Of a stretch of DNA of 64,000 bases, positions 46,857-61,060 are shown one piece after another. The stretch is from positions 337,416 through 401,415 of the forward strand of contig JAQUIJ010000004.1 in NCBI GenBank assembly GCA_028683385.1, read 5' to 3'. The translations under genes were made by a program, and so were the position numbers. The number at the start of each line of letters is the position of its first letter. Within the stretch, counting starts at the first letter, position 1. The stretch is from Prolixibacteraceae bacterium. GTDB taxonomy: Bacteria > Bacteroidota > Bacteroidia > Bacteroidales > Prolixibacteraceae. The notes below the pieces were generated by a model. That model did no database searches. It had not been told where the DNA came from and saw only the letters and a program-made list of their open reading frames with translations.

Positions 46857-47555
46857 TTAAAAGAATATCCTGATGATGTAATAGAAACCCACGGTAATAA
46901 AGAGTACGGCAATCACTCGGCGAAACCAAATTTCGAAATTCCTCATTTTGTTATAAACTCCACCAATTGAACCAATCGAAAATGCCAGTATCCATGCAAA
47001 AATGATTACCGGAATGCCGGTAGCCAGAGCAAAAACCAATGGTAGATATAGTCCTGATGCGCTTGCAACGGTCATTGGAACAAGCATTCCAAAATACAGA
47101 ACGCCGCTGTAAGGGCAGAATGCGAGTGCGAAAATCATCCCGAGCAAAATGGCATCAAAATAACCCCATTTGGTTTTTGTTTCCATTTTAGAGGTCAAAC
47201 TGCTCATTCCCGGAAACTTGATTTTAATTACATCGAGCATAAATAAACCGATGATAATCAGTAACGGACCAACAATCTTTTCACCATAAAGCTGAAAAAA
47301 GCCTGAAAATTTAAACTGATCGGCACCAAAAAAAATGATAAGAGCAATGGCGGTATACGAAATTGCCCGACCAAGTGTATAAAGCAATCCGTTAACGAAA
47401 ACACGGTTGCGGTTTTCGATGTCCTTGCTGATAAAACCTACCGCCGTGATGTTGGTGGCTAGCGGACATGGACTGATTGCAGTCATTAATCCCAGCACCA
47501 GTGCTGATAGCCATGGTACGGTGCTGTTTTCCAAAATATTGGTCAGGAATTCCAT
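46857..47555 (-). CDS. ArsG-like/CcdA-superfamily membrane transporter
   Basis: A 232-residue inner-membrane protein with six helices. It has the CcdA-type motif AISPCPLATNITAVGFIS near residue 25 and a second LAFCPYSGVLYFGML near 145; both carry the Cys-Pro pair. I recognise the subfamily annotated as ArsG, implicated with ArsE/ArsF in efflux or reduction of aromatic arsenicals in Shewanella. It directly follows the ArsF-like gene with 3 bases between. CcdA-type thiol transfer across the membrane is the alternative role, and the partner's CxxC motif fits either. Confidence 0.8.
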   Translation of the reverse strand: MEFLTNILENSTVPWLSALVLGLMTAISPCPLATNITAVGFISKDIENRNRVFVNGLLYTLGRAISYTAIALIIFFGADQFKFSGFFQLYGEKIVGPLLIIIGLFMLDVIKIKFPGMSSLTSKMETKTKWGYFDAILLGMIFALAFCPYSGVLYFGMLVPMTVASASGLYLPLVFALATGIPVIIFAWILAFSIGSIGGVYNKMRNFEIWFRRVIAVLFITVGFYYIIRIFF

Positions 47556-47558
47556 CGT

Positions 47559-47966
47559 TTATAAATCTAATAATGGGTCAACTTTTGCTTTGATGATTGA
47601 TTTTAATTTTGCTGGTTTGGTTACGGCATACAAAAAACCTTCGTTGGTCAGGTTTATTTTCTGATCACCTTTCACAATCAACAGCGTTTGTCCAGAAACT
47701 TGCAATTTCTCAGCAATCGGTTTGGTGGCATCATCTTCCAGATTTAAGGCTTTAAAAGTAACCTGATCTCCATAAAGGCTTTCCAAATCAGCCTTTGCTT
47801 CAGCTTCAACAGTTTTACATGTTGTACAGCGCGCAGTGTTATGAAAATAATAGGCTTCGACCTGATTATCTGTAGCTGCTTTTTCTTTTTTCTCCGTTTG
47901 AGCGTTGCATATCAAGCTGCTCATTAATAGCACGATTGAAATACTTATTCGTTGAATCCTTTTCAT
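47559..47966 (-). CDS. ArsF-like exported CxxC protein
   Basis: A 135-residue product with a signal peptide (ISISIVLLMSSLICNAQ) and a thioredoxin-like domain with ARCTTCKTVEAEAK near residue 50. It resembles the small family named ArsF (nitrophenyl-compound nitroreductase subunit-like). Lacks a long catalytic domain, so it is best seen as a periplasmic thiol relay for the adjacent ArsG/CcdA-like membrane protein. Part of the leftward arsR-thioredoxin-arsF-arsG unit. The naming rests on remembered family similarity, not on a search. Confidence 0.75.
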   Translation of the reverse strand: MKRIQRISISIVLLMSSLICNAQTEKKEKAATDNQVEAYYFHNTARCTTCKTVEAEAKADLESLYGDQVTFKALNLEDDATKPIAEKLQVSGQTLLIVKGDQKINLTNEGFLYAVTKPAKLKSIIKAKVDPLLDL

Positions 47967-48058
47967 AGTTATATTGAGTTTTAGTATTTAAAATGTATTG
48001 ATTTGAAGCTGATAAAAGCCTGGTATTTGCATTTTCAAATCTTCATATTGTCACATTT

Positions 48059-48298
48059 TCAAATGGTTTTGGTTAAAACTTGCTTGATTTCGTCAGAAGA
48101 AGGCACGCGACCTTTGATTTCTACCTTTCCGTTTACAACAAGGGCCGGAGTGGTCATGACACCGTATTTCATGATTTCCACAATATCTTCCACCTTGGTG
48201 ACAGAAGCATCAATGCCATTTTGTTCAACAACGTCGCGGGTCAATCGTTCAAGTGTTTTGCATTTGGGGCAGCCAGTGCCTAAGATTTTAATTTCCAT
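48059..48298 (-). CDS. Small thioredoxin-family redox protein
   Basis: A 79-residue cytosolic protein, MEIKILGTGCPKCKTLERL, with the CxxC near residue 10 and a VMTTPALVVNGKVEIKG strand region near 45-60. This is the compact thioredoxin-fold family (TIGR00412-like) often placed beside ArsR regulators and permeases. The start at 48298 is chosen because a longer frame overlaps the arsR gene end. Second gene of the leftward operon. Confidence 0.88.
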   Translation of the reverse strand: MEIKILGTGCPKCKTLERLTRDVVEQNGIDASVTKVEDIVEIMKYGVMTTPALVVNGKVEIKGRVPSSDEIKQVLTKTI

Positions 48299-48312
48299 GA
48301 TTTTATTTGTTT

Positions 48313-48639
48313 TTATTGACATTTCGGTATTGGTTCTTCACTGTCCATTTTCAGAAATTTCCGGAATAAATCCTGAGCTTCTTTCCAGTTTTCACGGTTC
48401 AGGCAATACTTAACTCGTGGGGCTTCAATTTCACCCTGAATAAGTCCGGCATCTTTCAATTCTTTCAGGTGTTGTGAAAGGGTTGATTTTACTATCGGAA
48501 GATCTTCGGTTAGATCGCCACTGTAGCAACATGATTGTTTTGAAAGCAATTCAAGTACATACATCCGGATGGGATGTCCCATTGCTTTGGCATAGCGGGC
48601 GGCCTTTTGCTGTTCTTCTGTGATTATTTCTTTCTGCAT
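48313..48639 (-). CDS. arsR: ArsR/SmtB-family repressor
   Basis: A 108-residue winged-helix regulator. It has the family core AMGHPIRMYVLELLSKQSCCYSGDL, the recognition helix region VKSTLSQHLKELKDAGLI and the wing IEAPRVKYCLNRENW. Cys37-Cys38 sit where classical ArsR has its helix-3 metalloid cysteines, and a further Cys lies in the wing and one at the C-terminus; binding of As(III), Sb(III) or another thiophile is plausible. First gene of its operon with a palindromic operator 8 bases upstream of its start. Confidence 0.92.
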   Translation of the reverse strand: MQKEIITEEQQKAARYAKAMGHPIRMYVLELLSKQSCCYSGDLTEDLPIVKSTLSQHLKELKDAGLIQGEIEAPRVKYCLNRENWKEAQDLFRKFLKMDSEEPIPKCQ

Positions 48640-50120: not shown

Positions 50121-51431
50121 TTATTTCAATGCAATGAGTGTTTTTGTAATTGAATCTCTTAAGTTTTGTGCAACTTTTACTTCTTCGGCATATTGTTGCC
50201 AATTACTTACTACTAATTTTATTTCATCAATAATCTTTTTACCCTTTTTGATATTATTAGCTGAGGCAATGGTCATCAAGTCGGCTTTCGTTATGTCCTT
50301 GTGTTTCCCATTTATGCTGAGAGTATGCTGACTTACCCAAATATTATTGGGATCATAGGAATAGCAGACGTCGTAAGCGGGAGACAATTCCCATTTGCCT
50401 TCTTTTTTAAGCCTGAAAGAAAAATTTTTGGTGTGGTCATCATAGTTTGTTGCCATGACATTAAACACCATCCTGCGGAACATTTGTTCGGCTTCCGGAT
50501 AAGTTAGTTTCAGTATGCGCATGGTTTGAAAAAGTTGCTCGTAACTGTATCCATACAAATTATTGTAGTCAAAGTGCTGAATACCACAAAAAGTTTGAAT
50601 GTGATGTTTGGTATCATGACCCTCACGGTCAAAACGTTTGGTCATAAAATGTGCACGTCCGTTATCTTCCTCCAATAAATGACAATCCATCATGTTGATG
50701 CCGCAATCTTTTGCCATTAAATGGTAAGCATATTCCACTCTTCCAAAGCCTTTGCTTTCTCCAAATTGTGCGTCATGAACTCCATCCAGTTTAATCAACC
50801 AATGCTCAAAACCTTTGGGCGCTTTGGCTTGTCCGGATTTCACTTCGCCAGTTTTGCTGTTATAGGCTATCACCGCTTTGGCTCGGGCACCTCCAGCCGA
50901 AGTTCCAATTTTCAGGATTTCACTCATGGCCTTCTGCTCATCTTGTTTCAGATTGGTTTCAAAGCTTACTCGTTGATCAAGCATCCGTTGCGCCGTTTCA
51001 ACTAAACTTTTTATTTCAATGGATAAGGCTTGTTTGCCAGCTTTAAACAGTGCCAGTTCAAACTCTAAAGCACCCATTCCCCTTGTCCCAATAAAACACA
51101 ACTGTTCTACCGGATTCATACTATCTGCCGGACGACCATGTTGAGCTAACCAGATATTGATTAACTGATTACCATACTTATCGGGTAATGCATCAGCCAA
51201 CAAACCTGGCAATCCTTTAAATGTATCTATATTTTCACCCCGGGTTGGACGCAGTTCGGGAAAAGAATAAATTCTAGACCCATTTTTTAATGGCATTTTA
51301 ATTGGAGAAATGTCCCAACCTTTTGAAAGAAATTTGGTGTCGTACTGAAAACTGGCCAATCGTTTATCAGAGTCCCAACGGACAGCACCAACTAATTCTT
51401 CCCAAATTTTTACCTCGGCAAAATCTACCAT
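50121..51431 (-). CDS. hipA: HipA-family toxin kinase
   Basis: A 436-residue kinase of the HipA family (E. coli HipA phosphorylates glutamyl-tRNA synthetase). It has the N-terminal domain (VKIWEELVGAVRWD), FKGLPGLLADALPDKYGN near 70, the P-loop-like GTSAGGARAKAVIAYN near 175, the FGRVEYAYHLMAKDCGI helix near 225, MTKRFDREGHDTKHHI near 258 with the activation region, NVMATNYDDHTKNFSF near 330 with the catalytic Asp/Asn, and LSPAYDVCYSYDP. All key parts are present, so it should be active. It overlaps the antitoxin gene by seven bases. Confidence 0.92.
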   Translation of the reverse strand: MVDFAEVKIWEELVGAVRWDSDKRLASFQYDTKFLSKGWDISPIKMPLKNGSRIYSFPELRPTRGENIDTFKGLPGLLADALPDKYGNQLINIWLAQHGRPADSMNPVEQLCFIGTRGMGALEFELALFKAGKQALSIEIKSLVETAQRMLDQRVSFETNLKQDEQKAMSEILKIGTSAGGARAKAVIAYNSKTGEVKSGQAKAPKGFEHWLIKLDGVHDAQFGESKGFGRVEYAYHLMAKDCGINMMDCHLLEEDNGRAHFMTKRFDREGHDTKHHIQTFCGIQHFDYNNLYGYSYEQLFQTMRILKLTYPEAEQMFRRMVFNVMATNYDDHTKNFSFRLKKEGKWELSPAYDVCYSYDPNNIWVSQHTLSINGKHKDITKADLMTIASANNIKKGKKIIDEIKLVVSNWQQYAEEVKVAQNLRDSITKTLIALK

Positions 51432-51778
51432 ACTGTATCTTCATTTGTGTTTTCAACTTCATTTTGATTTCTTGCCCTTTGCCTTTTGTTCTTTTGCAAC
51501 TTCGCATACTCAATGGGACTTATTTCATTGCTTATTTTAAAAATATCCATAACATACAACAATTCGAGTACTCGCAAAACCTGGATTAAACTACTCAAAG
51601 TTACTTTTTCTCCTCTCTCCAACAAACTCAAGGTGGAGCGGCTTACACCCGCAGCAACAGACACTTCATTCTGCGTTTTATTTTGATTCAAACGATGGTG
51701 TTTTATGAAATTTCCAATGGTTGCACCTAGTGCTTTATCGCTCATGGAGACCCAGTCGTTGTATGAATTGTCATTCAT
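51425..51778 (-). CDS. hipB: HipB-like Xre antitoxin
   Basis: A 117-residue protein with a helix-turn-helix at about residues 22-80 (FIKHHRLNQNKTQNEVSVAAGVSRSTLSLLE with an RGEK wing). It is expected to bind DNA and neutralise HipA. It is longer than E. coli HipB (88 residues); the extra C-terminal tail is basic and polar. Start overlaps the first of several palindromes. Coupled to hipA by an overlap. Confidence 0.9.
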   Translation of the reverse strand: MNDNSYNDWVSMSDKALGATIGNFIKHHRLNQNKTQNEVSVAAGVSRSTLSLLERGEKVTLSSLIQVLRVLELLYVMDIFKISNEISPIEYAKLQKNKRQRARNQNEVENTNEDTVW

Positions 51779-52476: not shown

Positions 52477-52812
52477 TTATTTTGTCACTTCTTCAAAATG
52501 CACCAACGACCAATCAATCATCATGTTCAGTACCGGAAGAAGGCTTTTCCCGGTTTCAGTCAGCGAATATTCCACCCGCGGAGGGATTTCAGCATACGCC
52601 TCGCGAAGAATAAAATGATCGGCCTCCAGTTGTTTTAAGGTACTCGAGAGCATCTTCTGCGAAATGTCGGGAATGGCACCAAGCAATTCTTTGTAGCGCA
52701 TTTTTTCTTTTCCCTGCAGGTTTACCAGTATCAACAGCGACCATTTGTCGCTAAATCGACTCAACACATTCCGTATCGGACAAGTTGGGTAATGCAAATC
52801 CAATTCTCTCAT
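52477..52812 (-). CDS. HxlR-family transcriptional regulator
   Basis: A 111-residue winged-helix regulator. It opens MRELDLHYPTCPIRNVLSRF, then DKWSLLILVNLQGKEKMRYKEL and the recognition region ISQKMLSSTLKQLEADHF, with wing YAEIPPRVEYSLTETG. Cys11 is in the N-terminal position that in HypR, QorR and YodB senses quinones, aldehydes or disulfide stress. Divergent from the peptide/radical SAM island 226 bases away, so it is the natural candidate for its control; this is inference. Confidence 0.9.
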   Translation of the reverse strand: MRELDLHYPTCPIRNVLSRFSDKWSLLILVNLQGKEKMRYKELLGAIPDISQKMLSSTLKQLEADHFILREAYAEIPPRVEYSLTETGKSLLPVLNMMIDWSLVHFEEVTK

Positions 52813-52980
52813 ATTTTTTGCTTTGAAGTTTCTTCAAAAGTATAAATAATCTCTAAGAGAGAGTAACAGTCCATTTAAATTATTACCACCTAAAAAATGT
52901 TTATATAAATTAAAAATTTTTATCTACATAACACATTGATAATCTATAATTCTAACCTAATGGGTTCGTTGCACACCTGC

Positions 52981-53011
52981 TTGTCTGGGGTAGTACAACT
53001 TCATAAATTTG
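52981..53011 (+). promoter_or_regulatory. Promoter of the peptide/radical SAM island
   Basis: TTG at 52981-52983, 20-base spacer, TAAATTTG at 53004-53011, with the peptide start 28 bases on. The boxes and spacing equal those before the UDP-sugar gene. Confidence 0.65.
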
Positions 53012-53038: not shown

Positions 53039-53299
53039 ATGAACGGATTAAATTTATTAAGCGGTTGGGCAGGAATTAAAGAATATTTCGCCCCAAGAAG
53101 TGCTCAGGGTTATTTAAAATCAAATCAGTTATTACTCGCTTCAACAGGATGTGGTTCATCTTGTGGCTCAAATGAAGGCGATGCCAAACCGTCAGCATGC
53201 GGTGCTGGTGATGATCAACCAAAACCATCAGCTTGTGGTGCAGGCGACGATCCAAAACCATCTGCATGCGGATCGTCATGCGGTAGCGACGGCAAGTAA
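53039..53299 (+). CDS. Six-cysteine ACG-repeat peptide, probable RiPP precursor
   Basis: An 86-residue peptide. Residues 1-36 form a leader-like region without cysteine (MNGLNLLSGWAGIKEYF ...). The rest is a Gly/Ser/Asp/Pro-rich core with six Cys at 38, 42, 54, 66, 77 and 81. PSACGAGDD occurs twice and PSACGSSCGSD ends the peptide, so ACG recurs at a spacing of 11-12 residues, and CGSSCGS occurs at both ends of the core. The start at 53039 excludes ten upstream residues. I recall a family of ACGX-repeat peptides paired with radical SAM/SPASM enzymes, and this fits. It is 68 bases before such an enzyme. Confidence 0.82.
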   Translation: MNGLNLLSGWAGIKEYFAPRSAQGYLKSNQLLLASTGCGSSCGSNEGDAKPSACGAGDDQPKPSACGAGDDPKPSACGSSCGSDGK

Positions 53300-53306
53300 T
53301 CTGTAC

Positions 53307-53344
53307 AAATGTCCCGGTACGTTTTTCCGCGGCCGGGACATTTT
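53307..53344 (+). terminator. Attenuating hairpin between peptide and radical SAM gene
   Basis: AAATGTCCCGG pairs exactly with CCGGGACATTT across a 15-base loop, followed by another T. It would let many transcripts stop after the peptide and some continue into the enzyme, giving more precursor than maturase. Confidence 0.78.
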
Positions 53345-53367
53345 ACTTTAACTCAAAAGAAAATTTC

Positions 53368-54393
53368 ATGGAATATTTTGCATTTCAATGGCATATTACA
53401 GATAGCTGCGACCAGCGTTGCCTGCACTGTTACATCTTTTCAGAAAACAACCACTTCAAGCTCAAAGAAATGTCGTGGGACGAAATCGAATCGGTTTTAC
53501 AAAACTGTCAGGATATGTGCAGCAAGGCAAACCGTGTTCCTTATTTCTATATCACCGGCGGCGACCCGATTTTGCATAGCCGTTTCTGGGATTTGATGGA
53601 ACTTTTCAAGTCGAAAAAAATTGCGTTCTCGATACTTGGCAATCCATTTCACCTGAACGACGAAGTGTGCCGTCGGTTAAAGGATTGTGGTTGCGAGCGC
53701 TATCAGCTTTCAATCGACGGACTGCGCGAAACGCACGATGCCATCCGGATGCCCGGATCGTTTGACACCACGCTCGAAAAAATTAAATGCCTCCGGAATG
53801 CAGGTATTCGCTGCGCCATTATGACCACCGTTTCGGGAACAAACATTGCCGAAATGCCCGAAATTGTTGACCTGGTAGTGGAGCACAAAGCCGATATTTT
53901 TGCCTTCGCAAGGTACTGTCCGACAAGTACCGAAAAAAGCACACACATTTCGCCCGAACAATACCGCGACTTACTGGATGTTCTGTGGCAAAAATTTGAG
54001 TTTTACAAAGACAGTGGCACTAGTTTCAACCTGAAAGATCATCTCTGGACATTGTATCTCTACGAAAAAGGTTTGTTTACCATTCCTGAAAACCTGAATG
54101 AAGAAATTATTTACGACGGATGCAATTGCGCCAACTGTCACCTGACCATACTCCCAAAAGGCGAAGTGTATGCCTGCCGCCGGTTCGAGAGTAATATCGG
54201 GAATGTTTTCAACGAAAAGTTGTTCGATATTTTCACCGGGGAGCCGATGAATCAATTCCGCAATTACGAAAAATTCGAGAAATGTTCGAAATGCGAATTG
54301 AAACGGTTTTGCCGTGGATGCCCTGCGGTAACATACGGATATAGCGGTAATTTCTACGGAACCGATCCGCAATGCTGGAAACAGGTAAGTTGA
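53368..54393 (+). CDS. Radical SAM/SPASM peptide maturase
   Basis: A 341-residue cytosolic enzyme. The SAM cluster motif is TDSCDQRCLHCYIF (Cys14, 18, 21). The core follows with YFYITGGDPILHSRFWDLM near 60 and RYQLSIDGLRETHD near 110. A SPASM-type C-terminal region has CNCANCHLTILPKGEVYACRR near 250, KFEKCSKCELKRFCRGCPA near 305 and a final Cys near 338, enough for two auxiliary clusters. It is expected to modify the upstream Cys-rich peptide; the chemistry (thioether or other crosslink) cannot be told. No transporter or protease gene for the product is seen nearby. Confidence 0.88.
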   Translation: MEYFAFQWHITDSCDQRCLHCYIFSENNHFKLKEMSWDEIESVLQNCQDMCSKANRVPYFYITGGDPILHSRFWDLMELFKSKKIAFSILGNPFHLNDEVCRRLKDCGCERYQLSIDGLRETHDAIRMPGSFDTTLEKIKCLRNAGIRCAIMTTVSGTNIAEMPEIVDLVVEHKADIFAFARYCPTSTEKSTHISPEQYRDLLDVLWQKFEFYKDSGTSFNLKDHLWTLYLYEKGLFTIPENLNEEIIYDGCNCANCHLTILPKGEVYACRRFESNIGNVFNEKLFDIFTGEPMNQFRNYEKFEKCSKCELKRFCRGCPAVTYGYSGNFYGTDPQCWKQVS

Positions 54394-54400
54394 TTTGAAA

Positions 54401-55372
54401 ATGAAAGCAGTTGTACTATACAAAACATGTTCTCCTGAAGAACTTACAATCAGCGAAATACCAGTTCCTGAAGTAAAATCAGGATGGGTACTGATAAAAG
54501 TAAAGGCGTTTGGATTAAACCGCTCTGAACTTATGATGCGCGAGTACGAAGGAAATGCGCCTTACATCAATCTGCCAAGAGTTCTTGGAATTGAATGTGT
54601 GGGCGAAATTGCCGATGTTTCGGATAGCACATTCAGAAAAAGACAAAAAGTTGTGGCGCTAATGGGCGGTATGGGACGCTCCTTCGATGGTAGTTATGCC
54701 GAATATGCATTGATTCCGACAAAGAATGTTTTTACGGTTGAAACTGACCTCCCGTGGGAAGAACTGGCTGCCATTCCTGAAACGTATTTTACGGCCTACG
54801 GCTCACTTTTTAGCAGCCTGCAATTGTCTCCTGAAGATATTTTACTCGTTCGGGGAGGAACAAGCGCTGCCGGATTATCAGCAATTCAGCTTGCCAAAAG
54901 CATCGGTGCCACTGTGCTGGCTTCTACCAGGAAAACACATAAACGCGAACTACTAATTAATCAGGGAGCTGATCATGTGCTGATTGATGATGGCACGTTA
55001 AAAAGCCAGTTGCTCAATCTCTATCCCAACGGGATAACTAAAGTGTTGGAATTGGTTGGTCCGGCTACACTGGCCGAATCGTTGAGCATGGTCAAACTTC
55101 ATGGAATTGTATGCGTCACCGGAATTCTGGGAAAAAAGGGAACCATCGAAAATTTCTACCCCATCAAGGATATTCCTTCAGGAGTTTACCTTACCGGTTT
55201 TTCGAGCAACAATCCGACCCAGCAAATCATGGACGACATTTTCAGCCGAATCAAAAAGCATAAACTAAAACCAGCTATTGCCAAAGTATTTGCCTTGTCT
55301 GAAATCGGCCAGGCTCACCGCCTGATGGAGAATAATGAAGCCAACGGGAAAGTGGTCGTCCAAACTAGTTAG
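54401..55372 (+). CDS. Quinone-oxidoreductase-like MDR protein
   Basis: A 323-residue medium-chain dehydrogenase/reductase without catalytic zinc ligands. It has an N-terminal GroES-like fold (VKAFGLNRSELMMREYEGN, VLGIECVGEIADV) and a Rossmann domain (LLVRGGTSAAGLSAIQLAKS, then LELVGPATLAESLSMVK). Family members reduce quinones or enones with NADPH. The true ATG is at 54401; a TTG two codons upstream is unlikely. It follows the radical SAM gene by seven bases, so it is part of the same transcript and may act on the peptide or on quinone stress. Confidence 0.85.
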   Translation: MKAVVLYKTCSPEELTISEIPVPEVKSGWVLIKVKAFGLNRSELMMREYEGNAPYINLPRVLGIECVGEIADVSDSTFRKRQKVVALMGGMGRSFDGSYAEYALIPTKNVFTVETDLPWEELAAIPETYFTAYGSLFSSLQLSPEDILLVRGGTSAAGLSAIQLAKSIGATVLASTRKTHKRELLINQGADHVLIDDGTLKSQLLNLYPNGITKVLELVGPATLAESLSMVKLHGIVCVTGILGKKGTIENFYPIKDIPSGVYLTGFSSNNPTQQIMDDIFSRIKKHKLKPAIAKVFALSEIGQAHRLMENNEANGKVVVQTS

Positions 55373-56295: not shown

Positions 56296-57390
56296 ATGAG
56301 AACAAAAATTTTACTCAGAGCAATTGTAATCGTTATTCTAACAACGATACAAACTGTAGCTTATTCTCAAAGTTCAATTGAGTTTTTCATTAATGAAATT
56401 AACGGCAACGACCAAAAACCGGGAACTAAAGAACAACCTTTAAAAACATTAAATAAGGCTGCCGATCTGGTCAATCTGGCCAATGGGAAAGGTGCTATTA
56501 CGGTATATCTTTCGGAAGGCATTTATGGTTTGGACGCTACTGCTACTTTTCACCCGGCGAACTGGCATTTCACCAAAGAGCAGCGACTGACTATCAGGGC
56601 TGAAGTTTTACCGGATGACGCCAATTGGGACCCCGGAAAAATGCCGGTGATTGTTTCAACAATGCCTTTAAATTTTAAGCCTTATGGGAATAACGATCCA
56701 CTTGGCGGAACCTCGTACGGAATTCAGATTGAAACTGAACATGTAACCATTCAGGGCTTGCGGGTTTTGGGCACTCCTGTACACGAAAGACCTAAAGACG
56801 GTATGGTGAGAAGAAATTATCCGATTGTTCGTGAAGGCCGGAATCTTGATGATTTGCGCATTACCCAATGTTTGTTCATGGGCGACAGGCAAGCCATTCC
56901 AAACCACCTGGCAATATTGGCCAGCGGACAAGGCGTGGTCGTTGACCATTGTATCTTCTATCATTGTAAAGATGCTGTTGTTTTTTGGTTTTCGGATGAA
57001 CCTGCAAAAAATTGCGAAGTACACCACAATCTTTTCATAGGCAATTACGGCGCAAATGTTTGGTCGTGGTCGGCCGCTGAAGATTTAAAATTCTACAACA
57101 ATGTAGTAACCGACACCAATGTGTTCTGGATTTTAAACAGAGATGAAAAAACTTCATTCTCGCTTTCAAACTCATTAATTTCAGGATATACTGAACTGGT
57201 GGACAAAGGCGGTGGACCTGCTGGTTTTGGAGAAAAAGCTGATCCGGCAAAATTGAAACTTGGTAAAGATGTCATCCTGAAAAAGGAAGGCAAATTGCAA
57301 ATAGAAGAAGACCAAACCAAACGTAACTATCTTCATTTAGTATCAGGAACTCCAGGTTCCGAACTGAAAGCCGGACTTTTCAATCAATAA
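56296..57390 (+). CDS. Exported parallel beta-helix protein, paralogue A
   Basis: A 364-residue product with signal peptide (LRAIVIVILTTIQTVAYSQ). It begins FFINEINGNDQKPGTKEQPLK, the DUF1565-like opening of right-handed beta-helix proteins, and continues with repeated turns (VTIQGLRVLG, LRITQCLFMG, VVVDHCIFYH, CEVHHNLFIG, LKFYNNVVT). No lyase or hydrolase catalytic signature was recognised. It is closely similar to the product of 59969-61060 along its whole length, ending in SELKAGLFNQ versus SNLGAGLFTK. Likely polysaccharide- or surface-binding. Co-directional with the surrounding genes. Confidence 0.8.
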   Translation: MRTKILLRAIVIVILTTIQTVAYSQSSIEFFINEINGNDQKPGTKEQPLKTLNKAADLVNLANGKGAITVYLSEGIYGLDATATFHPANWHFTKEQRLTIRAEVLPDDANWDPGKMPVIVSTMPLNFKPYGNNDPLGGTSYGIQIETEHVTIQGLRVLGTPVHERPKDGMVRRNYPIVREGRNLDDLRITQCLFMGDRQAIPNHLAILASGQGVVVDHCIFYHCKDAVVFWFSDEPAKNCEVHHNLFIGNYGANVWSWSAAEDLKFYNNVVTDTNVFWILNRDEKTSFSLSNSLISGYTELVDKGGGPAGFGEKADPAKLKLGKDVILKKEGKLQIEEDQTKRNYLHLVSGTPGSELKAGLFNQ

Positions 57391-57451: not shown

Positions 57452-57673
57452 ATGCCACATGTAGTTGTAAAAATGTATCCGGGAAGCTCGGAGGAACAAA
57501 AAAACAAACTAAGCGAAGAAATTACAAAATCGATTATGACCATTGTAAACAAGCCAGAAGGTGCAGTTTCGGTTGCAATTGAGGAAGTTGCCGAGAATGA
57601 ATGGATGGATAAAGTTTATGATGCAGAAATTCGTCCGAACCTCGAAAAATTGTACAAAAAACCAGGCTATTAA
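57452..57673 (+). CDS. 4-oxalocrotonate tautomerase-family protein
   Basis: A 73-residue protein beginning Met-Pro, MPHVVVKMYPGSSEEQKNKL; after Met removal Pro1 is the family's catalytic base. It is about ten residues longer than the classical 62-residue enzyme and contains GAVSVAIEEVAENEWMDKVYD. Unlike its neighbours it has no signal peptide and must be cytosolic. Tautomerase substrates are enols of keto acids. It lies 12 bases before the monooxygenase-like gene. Confidence 0.85.
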   Translation: MPHVVVKMYPGSSEEQKNKLSEEITKSIMTIVNKPEGAVSVAIEEVAENEWMDKVYDAEIRPNLEKLYKKPGY

Positions 57674-57684
57674 AATTAAATAAG

Positions 57685-58041
57685 ATGAAAAAATTAGTTC
57701 TATTACTTGCCATTATTGGCTTGACAAGCATTTCGTTTGCTCAACAAAAATCGGAACCCATGAAAAAAACAGTAGTTGCCCGACTTACCATCAAGAAAGA
57801 AGCTGTTGAAAACTTTGTTCAATTTGCTCAGAAGATAGTGGAAGAAACCAGGAAAGAGACTGGATGCATTTCCTATGGTTTATACAAAAATACCTTTGGA
57901 AAGGAAGCTGAATTTGTATTTTATGAAGAATATAAAGATCAGGCTGCATTGGATTTCCATAACAAATCGGAACATCTAAAACAGTTCTTTGGTCAAATCA
58001 CCCCACTTCTTGCTGGTGCTCCGATTGTCGAGGTATTTTAA
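57685..58041 (+). CDS. Exported quinol-monooxygenase-like (ABM) protein
   Basis: A 118-residue protein with a signal peptide (MKKLVLLLAIIGLTSISFAQ) and an antibiotic-biosynthesis monooxygenase domain: VVARLTIKKEAVENFVQFAQ, ETGCISYGLYKNTFGKEAEFVFYEEY and FHNKSEHLKQFF. The cytosolic relatives (YgiN, putative quinol monooxygenases) are about 100 residues without a signal. Export of this fold is unusual and is seen directly in the sequence. It sits between a tautomerase and a DsrE-like gene. Confidence 0.85.
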   Translation: MKKLVLLLAIIGLTSISFAQQKSEPMKKTVVARLTIKKEAVENFVQFAQKIVEETRKETGCISYGLYKNTFGKEAEFVFYEEYKDQAALDFHNKSEHLKQFFGQITPLLAGAPIVEVF

Positions 58042-59968: not shown

Positions 59969-61060
59969 ATGAAAAGAAATAAAACATTGATGTTTAAATT
60001 GTTTGTGTTGATCATGTTCGTGCAAACAGTTGTTTTCGCTCAAGGCACTAAAGAGATTTTTATTAATGCCAATTCAGGGAATGATCAAAATGCCGGAACG
60101 AAAGAAAGTCCCCTGAAATCGTTAAGCGAAGCTGCTAAAAAAGTAAATACTCTGGAAGGTAAAGGTGCCATAACAATTTACCTCTCGAAAGGCGTGTACG
60201 GTATGGCTGAAACAGCCAAGTTTACTGCAGAAAAATGGCAATTTTCCGAATCCGACCGTTTGACTATCCGTGCTGAAAAATTACCGGACGATGCAAGCTG
60301 GAATCCGGGCGATATGCCTGTTATGGTATCAACAATGCCATTCGATATTGAAGAAAAGAATGACAAAAAAGAGCTTATTGGAGCATTTAATTATGGCATC
60401 CTCATTGAAACAAGCCATGTTACCATTCAGGGATTGCGTATCATGGGCGAACCGGTACACGAAAGTCCGTTTAAAAATATTTTAATCAGAAATTATCCGA
60501 TTGTTTGGGATGGTAAAAATCTGGAAGATTTCAGGGTAACCCAATGTTTGTTTTTAGGAAACAAAATTGCGCTTCCTAATCATTTAGGCATTCTTTCTGC
60601 CGGAAGGGCTTTGGAAGTCGATCATTGTGTGTTTTATGGTGTAAAAGATGCTGTGGTTATGTGGAATACACCTGCTGACAAATCAAAAATGCACCACAAT
60701 CTTTGTGTTAACACCTATGGAGCAATGGTTTGGACCTGGTCAACCACTGAAGATTTTAAATTCTACAACAACGTGATGAGTAATGTAAACGTAATCTGGG
60801 TCTTGAATAAGGATGCAAAAAATACGTTTGCCATCGAGAATTCCATGTTTGTTGGGTACAACGAATTAGTAAACAAAGGCGGTGGCGCAGCAGGTTTTGG
60901 TGAAAAAGCAGATCCTTCTAAATTGAAACTCAGCGATAATGTTGTTCTAAAGAAAGAAGGCAGTTTGCAAATAGTAGAAGATCCCACCGACCGCAACTAC
61001 CTGCATTTGGTGCCGGGCACAATGGGTTCAAATTTAGGAGCTGGTTTGTTTACCAAATAG
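59969..61060 (+). CDS. Exported parallel beta-helix protein, paralogue B
   Basis: A 363-residue product with signal peptide (LFVLIMFVQTVVFAQG), then KEIFINANSGNDQNAGTKES and beta-helix turns with the same motif order as paralogue A (VTIQGLRIMG, FRVTQCLFLG, LEVDHCVFYG, SKMHHNLCVN, FKFYNNVMS). The two share most positions including the GGAAGFGEKADPSKLKL block. The pair flanks the small-enzyme genes, suggesting a duplication. Role unknown, likely periplasmic or surface. Confidence 0.8.
   Translation: MKRNKTLMFKLFVLIMFVQTVVFAQGTKEIFINANSGNDQNAGTKESPLKSLSEAAKKVNTLEGKGAITIYLSKGVYGMAETAKFTAEKWQFSESDRLTIRAEKLPDDASWNPGDMPVMVSTMPFDIEEKNDKKELIGAFNYGILIETSHVTIQGLRIMGEPVHESPFKNILIRNYPIVWDGKNLEDFRVTQCLFLGNKIALPNHLGILSAGRALEVDHCVFYGVKDAVVMWNTPADKSKMHHNLCVNTYGAMVWTWSTTEDFKFYNNVMSNVNVIWVLNKDAKNTFAIENSMFVGYNELVNKGGGAAGFGEKADPSKLKLSDNVVLKKEGSLQIVEDPTDRNYLHLVPGTMGSNLGAGLFTK

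Follow-up and report, generated by a model that had tools for sequence, protein, structure and literature searches.

A radical SAM/SPASM enzyme and an ACG-repeat peptide in a probable stress-response operon of the ACGX type

What is a short cysteine-rich peptide doing beside a radical SAM enzyme, and what might the enzyme do to it? The two genes lie together in a 64,000-nucleotide stretch of a Prolixibacteraceae contig (the window; Table 1). A first-pass annotation made from the letters alone described an 86-residue peptide with a Cys-free leader and a six-cysteine, PSACGAGDD-repeat core, and this was confirmed from the open reading frame and its sequence. Residues 1–37 form the Cys-free leader, the six cysteines of the core (positions 38, 42, 54, 66, 77, and 81) are all followed by glycine, and PSACGAGDD is present twice. 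The frame is also open from an alternative TTG at 53009, which would give a product of 96 aa. Since 22 columns are invariant in an alignment of nine peptides and homologues are found 5′ of the enzyme gene in 74 of 80 related loci, a chance open reading frame was ruled out.

Table 1. Features of the ACGX locus and its surroundings, in window positions.
Feature	Positions	Strand	Basis or remark
HxlR/DUF24 transcriptional regulator, divergent, N-terminal Cys-Pro	52477..52812	-	PF01638 100 bits
Candidate regulator site TAACCTAATGGGTTCGTTGCACACC	52953..52977	+	Upstream of peptide promoter; consensus by eye
TAAATTTG, Bacteroidota -7-like element	53004..53011	+	Likeness to consensus TANNTTTG
ACGX-repeat precursor peptide (acgA-like), 86 aa	53039..53299	+	ATG 53039, stop ends 53299; TIGR04341 26.4 bits
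RNA hairpin in the peptide–enzyme spacer	53303..53346	+	-23.5 kcal/mol, z -4.35
Radical SAM/SPASM maturase (acgM-like), 341 aa	53368..54393	+	TIGR04340 598.4 bits; PF04055, PF13186
Quinone-oxidoreductase-like medium-chain dehydrogenase, next gene 3′	54395..55372 (ATG 54401)	+	TIGR02824 180 bits, cut-off 296.8
Tautomerase	57452-57673	+	Further downstream
ABM-type protein	57685-58041	+	Further downstream; kind near 7 other ACGX loci

The enzyme is a member of NCBIfam TIGR04340 ("radical SAM/SPASM domain protein, ACGX system"; 598.4 bits, cut-off 400), and the adjoining ACG-repeat peptide gene gives the window the ACGX layout. The peptide fell just under the cut-off of TIGR04341 ("ACGX-repeat peptide"; about 26.4–27 bits, cut-off 28), so that the comparison with RiPP precursor models proposed in the first-pass annotation came out positive for the enzyme and negative for the peptide (26.4 versus 28). 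Two peptides from the same genus pass this cut-off (43.6 and 31.8 bits), and the profile is insensitive, overlooking evident precursors in two genomes (G543 and G545). Because it misses precursors that are plainly present, the locus was filed as an ACGX system (TIGR04340/TIGR04341) by profile similarity of its enzyme and not of its peptide. The ACGX-type family named in the first-pass annotation is thus a real one, with the enzyme well over and the peptide slightly under the respective cut-off. In RefSeq, such genes on a Roseburia plasmid are named acgA and acgM. No literature on the ACGX radical SAM system, TIGR04340/TIGR04341, or acgM/acgA was found in an open-access library, and "ACG" is absent from the available part of a survey of Bacteroidales RiPPs (PMC10352776). 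The locus belongs to a catalogued, uncharacterised family, as had been proposed, and to that reading we add a divergent HxlR regulator gene, a downstream reductase gene, an intergenic hairpin, and kinship with SbtM.

A CX3CX2C motif (Cys 14, 18, and 21), a SPASM domain, and the fold place the enzyme among the SPASM radical SAM proteins. Nine further cysteines follow at positions 252, 254, 257, 270, 306, 309, 315, 318, and 336, and all except Cys257 are retained by 97% or more of the 81 sequences aligned; the ample auxiliary-cluster cysteines noted before are therefore nine from residue 252 on, with eight conserved. An AlphaFold2 model, built from an alignment of 38 of the 81 sequences, had a mean pLDDT of 87.5 and was poor at residues 19–23 and 25–28, which include one cysteine of the CX3CX2C motif. 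The solved structures closest to the model were SuiB, anSME, the sactipeptide enzyme 5why (which we take to be CteB), and PqqE, at 15–20% identity. The enzyme is presumably a dedicated RiPP maturase, and peptide and enzyme very probably form a RiPP pair.

If so, the two genes are expected to travel together. One genome from each of 84,980 species was scanned with patterns taken from the window's own enzyme, and 80 of the 105 relatives so obtained were retained; many of these loci are closely related to one another. A readable ACG-repeat precursor was found 5′ of the enzyme in 74 of the 80 (68 by script, including L045, and six by eye or with a second script). Co-occurrence in the fetched loci is nearly universal, with a precursor, at least in part, at the locus or elsewhere in the genome for 78 of 80. 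This count includes an Oscillibacter locus (L093) in which the precursor frame upstream of the enzyme is broken, two loci (L090 and L112) in which the 3′ tail of the precursor alone is left at a contig edge, and one (L049) with the precursor on a separate contig of the same genome. As for the other two, the sequence of L079 starts 47 bases before the enzyme, and in L103 the 3 kb flanking the enzyme on each side contain no precursor. Neither genome matched TIGR04341, a profile that also misses real precursors elsewhere. The first-pass annotation had staked the pairing on related enzymes not regularly lacking such a peptide; this was tested and the pairing stood, with the precursor at least partly kept in 78 of 80. 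Within the window's family, the enzyme was found in 3 of 140 genomes and the peptide in those same 3.

The distribution is sparse, because few genomes of the order (5 of 393) or of the phylum sample (1 of 395) exceed the TIGR04340 cut-off, the window's genome being included in each count. ACGX loci were found in Bacteroidota, Bacillota, and Methanobacteriota, and record titles point to gut, rumen, and sediment sources, with methanogens among the carriers; one cultured carrier is Labilibaculum manganireducens (L038). These lineages are mostly anaerobic. The enzyme is encoded on four plasmid records, two of which are versions of one plasmid, and in the tree one Prevotella enzyme was placed amid Bacillota enzymes. 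The patchiness, the plasmids, and the Prevotella placement suggest that ACGX loci may have been transferred horizontally, though metagenome-assembled contigs may be misassigned. A phage origin was rejected, with zero matches at E 1e-60 among 50,697 phage records. On a Methanosphaera plasmid (L136, 4989-6016), the enzyme is split across two frames, which, as in L093, could be decay or sequencing error.

Cys-Gly sites were counted in 73 precursors, that is, the window and 72 loci; L045, which contains a stretch of N, and L086, whose start is at -717, were omitted. At the 383 sites, the residue before the cysteine was A, S, or G in 378, an acid (D or E) occupied position +4 at 194 sites, and another Cys did so at 161. 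The six sites of the two archaeal precursors, L080 and L110, all have D/E at +3 and none has it at +4, and the last repeats of certain precursors have no D/E. Among 71 distinct precursors, 373 of 406 cysteines precede glycine. The nearly invariant unit is the immediate [A/S/G]-C-G, not the acidic residue.

What the enzyme would do to these cysteines may be judged from its relatives. Its second-best NCBIfam family was SbtM (TIGR04082; 185.9 bits, next 145), and the second-best family of an SbtM enzyme was ACGX (162 bits, next 86). The window enzyme missed the SbtM cut-off of 350, and it is thus a relative and not a member. In a tree built on 16 of the 81 ACGX enzymes plus 20 of 32 related ones, all 16 ACGX rows clustered with five SbtM rows and one other, away from the remaining 14 SPASM rows (99/97); this tree carries long-branch warnings. 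TIGR04340 matched 20 of 20 relatives at E 1e-20, and at E 0.001 it had weak matches in 289 of 395 phylum genomes and 10 of 14 control genomes; since this profile matches many SPASM enzymes weakly, weak kinship is unspecific. SbtM and its peptide SbtA (TIGR04082/TIGR04081) resemble the ACGX pair in that a SPASM enzyme acts on the cysteines of a small peptide, and the two enzyme families are reciprocal next-best matches; the SbtM profile differs in an N-terminal stretch that AcgM does not have. The carbonyl of the residue before the cysteine would close a thiooxazole ring. According to a review, the substrates of SbtM lose four hydrogens and NMR revealed a thiooxazole (PMC11002830). Because SbtM is the nearest named enzyme family and the residue at -1 is nearly fixed as A, S, or G, we infer by analogy that the AcgM-like enzyme would oxidise the [A/S]-C-G cysteines of the neighbouring peptide, and 5-thiooxazoles (minus four H per cysteine), as made by SbtM, are tentatively the likeliest product. 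The monoisotopic mass calculated for the reduced, unmodified window peptide is 8424.79; six thiooxazoles would bring it to 8400.60 (-24.19), and each thioether would take off 2.02.

The main rival to a thiooxazole, though a doubtful one, is a ranthipeptide-like thioether, in which the enzyme would join the cysteine sulfur to an acid four residues on (CX3D/E) in the manner of PapB. The 194 sites with D/E at +4 suit such rings, and the SPASM fold of the enzyme resembles those of SuiB and 5why. PapB/freyrasin-type ranthipeptides likewise combine a SPASM enzyme with many cysteines that have an acid at +4; the spacing of PapB is exactly CX3D, and in freyrasin the cysteines have an acidic residue four on. 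The accessible part of PMC9413430 describes PapB as joining Cys to Asp or Glu. Unlike in those peptides, however, the acid spacing is lost at the six sites of the two archaeal precursors, some last repeats have no acid at all, and 161 of the 383 sites have Cys at +4. The enzyme scored 59.7 bits with the PapB ranthipeptide maturase profile (NF047865), against a cut-off of 340 and against 186 bits for SbtM. With either Cys or D/E at +4 in so many sites (161 and 194 of 383), the spacing itself fits thioether or disulfide chemistry.

Two further loci are worth recording. In L007, the neighbour of an SbtM homologue is a peptide whose start is signal-like and which carries KKCAG/RRCGG motifs; this peptide scored 23.4 bits with SbtA (TIGR04081; cut-off 30.5). 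The signal-like N-terminus and these motifs indicate that SbtM and ACGX substrates differ. In L005, an enzyme with 226 bits to TIGR04340 groups with ACGX and SbtM, and the next gene encodes what by eye looks like a terpene-cyclase-like repeat protein; no ACG peptide was noticed within 2.9 kb, and this is possibly another system.

What the product would serve was approached through the neighbouring genes. Open reading frames were clustered around 81 loci (the 80 and the window), and clusters were named by comparing representatives with Pfam and NCBIfam; the counts below come from kin profiles built from these same, related loci and are not independent. In 61 of the 81 loci, an HxlR/DUF24 regulator is encoded between -2.5 and +3.5 kb, and 4 of the 20 without one have short flanks (77 evaluable by script). 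The regulator is concentrated at the locus: there were 46 matches in the first upstream kb (74 loci with a full kb) versus 2 in 399 locus-kb at 4–8 kb. Of the 62 HxlR proteins in these neighbourhoods, 59 carry Cys-Pro close to the N-terminus, and the remaining three have longer N-termini, so that the motif may be outside the stretch checked. The regulator adjacent in the window has the N-terminal cysteine typical of thiol-sensing HxlR/DUF24 proteins and scored far under the RrpA and RrpB cut-offs. Regulons of the YodB/CatR/HypR type likewise have an HxlR-family regulator with an N-terminal cysteine beside reductases, and they are not known to contain a RiPP. In Bacillus, regulators of the DUF24 family use the N-terminal cysteine to detect HOCl, quinones, and diamide, and they control reductases (PMC6943732).

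Directly 3′ of the enzyme and on the same strand, 68 of 80 loci have a reductase-type gene: quinone-oxidoreductase-like in 34, a nitroreductase in 23, a PNPOx-like protein with ferredoxin in 10, and an FMN reductase in 1. Of the 12 without one, 8 have a reductase elsewhere nearby and 4 have none; two of these 8 (L078 and L100) miss the rule for adjacency solely because the open frame starts before the limit. Counted over the whole neighbourhood, a reductase of these kinds was found near 76 of 81 loci. We also considered whether the nitroreductase might serve the RiPP as an azoline dehydrogenase and rejected this, as the two representatives tested weakly matched BluB or nitroreductase models and no SagB-type model. 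On the annotated Roseburia plasmid, the genes follow the order seen in the window, namely regulator, acgA, acgM, and reductase. The full set of HxlR, precursor, enzyme, and reductase is present in each of three plasmid loci found later (Roseburia, Methanosphaera, and Subdoligranulum).

A reductase so often next to the enzyme might instead use the peptide, which would then be the source of a redox cofactor for partner reductases in the style of mycofactocin or PQQ, and PqqE is among the nearest structures to the enzyme model. The adjacent reductases span four families, however, and no recurring peptidase that could free a small cofactor was seen by eye, which makes this reading quite improbable.

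Within 8 kb, a sirtuin-like gene was found in 18 of 81 loci, a macrodomain gene in 16, and both in 14; both are also present in two of the three plasmid loci found later. The sirtuin representative had no Pfam match at E 0.001 and matched chain 5a3a ("SIR2 family protein"), presumably SirTM, at E 3.9e-61. The macrodomain representative exceeded the cut-off for protein-ADP-ribose hydrolase. SirTMs, in SirTM-macrodomain pairs, modulate the oxidative-stress response according to the accessible part of PMC4518038. With these neighbours, the ACGX locus is fairly likely to be a stress-response operon.

Radical SAM RiPPs are often antimicrobial, and a secreted antimicrobial or signalling peptide was considered. 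Transporter genes occur in single loci: the Roseburia plasmid carries one of the MFS type, and L103 has an ABC-transporter-like frame upstream (by eye). Among the clusters that recur, however, no exporter or leader peptidase was seen, neither in the 18 found in at least 5 loci (nine named by Pfam, the rest by eye) nor in the 8 found in 3–4 loci (by eye), a search in which differing exporters in single loci would escape notice. The leader of the window peptide has no signal-peptide or double-Gly look by eye. We rejected the secreted reading on the 18 + 8 clusters and consider it highly improbable. The first-pass remark that no exporter or protease is nearby fits these recurring clusters, and because none was seen in them, the product is predicted to stay in the cytosol.

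The peptide could also be a metallophore or metal buffer like the captophorins and bufferins, in which thiooxazoles at CG repeats hold copper. The repeated CG layout of captophorins resembles that of ACGX peptides, and, as far as the sources are available, FonA-like captophorin precursors have EGKCG repeats, and copper is bound by the 5-thiooxazoles of captophorins (PMC12668002, PMC12452194). Thiooxazole peptides show absorbance near 302 nm (PMC12668002). However, no metal transporter or metal regulator was seen among the recurring neighbour clusters (partly by eye), and the ACGX leader is not signal-like by eye, whereas bufferin precursors carry Sec signals in the available text of PMC12452194. 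On this evidence, a metallophore or metal-buffer role is unlikely. As described in those partial texts, captophorins and bufferins share recurring Cys-Gly motifs and a link to stress with ACGX peptides; they differ in that multinuclear iron (MNIO) enzymes, unrelated to the ACGX enzyme, make them and that bufferins handle copper in the periplasm. The MNIO family (PF05114) was found in 0 of 20 ACGX genomes, G000 included, while the control matched in 2 of 14 known genomes. This absence is weakly consistent with a separate, oxygen-free route, and it tells of the route alone.

Our main reading, to which we give a probability of roughly 0.4 as a whole, is that the ACGX peptide would be a radical SAM RiPP for use inside the cell. 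The SPASM enzyme would convert its cysteines to thiooxazoles. A thiol-sensing HxlR/DUF24 regulator would control the operon, which would also yield an NAD(P)H or flavin reductase, and the many-sulfur product, working with the reductase, would act in the cytosol to quench electrophiles, oxidants, or soft metals. Support is good for the pairing and moderate for the stress role, while the chemistry is predicted from the likenesses above; the product may quench, chelate, or carry electrons. More speculatively, ACGX could be the anaerobes' cytosolic counterpart of captophorins, with thiooxazoles made without O2, an HxlR switch, interchangeable reductases, and in some loci SirTM/macrodomain genes, which may have moved among Bacteroidota, Clostridia, and methanogens, partly by plasmid, and would buffer electrophiles or oxidants; this broader picture we regard as improbable in full. 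No open-access literature joining thiooxazole, anaerobes, and oxidative stress was found. Radical SAM RiPPs are mostly regarded as antimicrobials, signals, or cofactors, and the neighbourhood here points to a cell-retained, stress-serving peptide in mostly anaerobic lineages. This analysis adds the setting in a probable stress operon and a specific prediction of the chemistry: a catalogued family without a known function gains two testable claims, a loss of 4 Da per ACG cysteine and induction by thiol-reactive stress.

Candidate regulatory signals were found around the peptide gene. The long site upstream of its promoter is probably a regulator site common to the window's closest loci. With at most five mismatches it was found in 13 of 46 intergenic regions, versus a mean of 1.0 (maximum 3) in 20 shuffles, and the carriers are the window and 12 loci with enzymes 76–97% identical to the window's. 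The window site fits a slightly looser pattern with 0 mismatches; with at most three mismatches, that pattern gave 3 versus 0.95 by chance. A second site, near the regulator gene, is likewise limited to the closest loci (present in 13 of 46 regions, with a mean of 0.25 in shuffles). The consensus of each site was set by eye on the very sequences counted. An operator common to all loci was not supported, as the long site occurs only in the window's closest loci. The short patterns TAACCTNNNAGGT and GTTACN6GTAAC barely exceeded shuffles (34 versus 30.6 and 38 versus 29.5), and a blind dyad scan, which kept 46 of 50 regions after short and overlong ones were dropped, found no dyad in more than 11 of the 46. 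A promoter/terminator scan gave about as many sites as shuffles did. The -7-like element of the window resembles TANNTTTG, which we take to be the consensus of the Bacteroidota -7 element.

A hairpin also lies between the peptide and enzyme genes. Every one of the 48 spacers folded has a stem of at least 7 pairs, against an expectation of 23.5, and z is at or below -2 in 36 of the 48; the folded spacers are those of 40–250 nt, and 25 of 73 were left out (20 of 30 nt or less, too short for such a hairpin, and 5 of more than 250 nt). Since an excess of peptide over enzyme suits a peptide that is the product, the hairpin is possibly an attenuator or a processing site that would yield more peptide than enzyme.

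Several other genes of the window deserve mention. Upstream of the ACGX operon, at 50121-51778 on the reverse strand, a HipA-like protein (PF07804, PF13657) and a HipB-like helix-turn-helix gene are probably a toxin-antitoxin pair. Further upstream, at 46857-48639 on the same strand, an ArsR-like regulator, two thioredoxin-like proteins (the small one with GCPKC), and a CcdA-like membrane protein are encoded in a row (by eye). Downstream, the tautomerase and ABM genes are at most candidate members of the operon. Paralogous beta-helix proteins at 56296-57390 (PF13229) and 59969-61060 flank the tautomerase, ABM, and DsrE-like genes, and 7 other ACGX loci encode the same beta-helix kind 3′ of their reductase.
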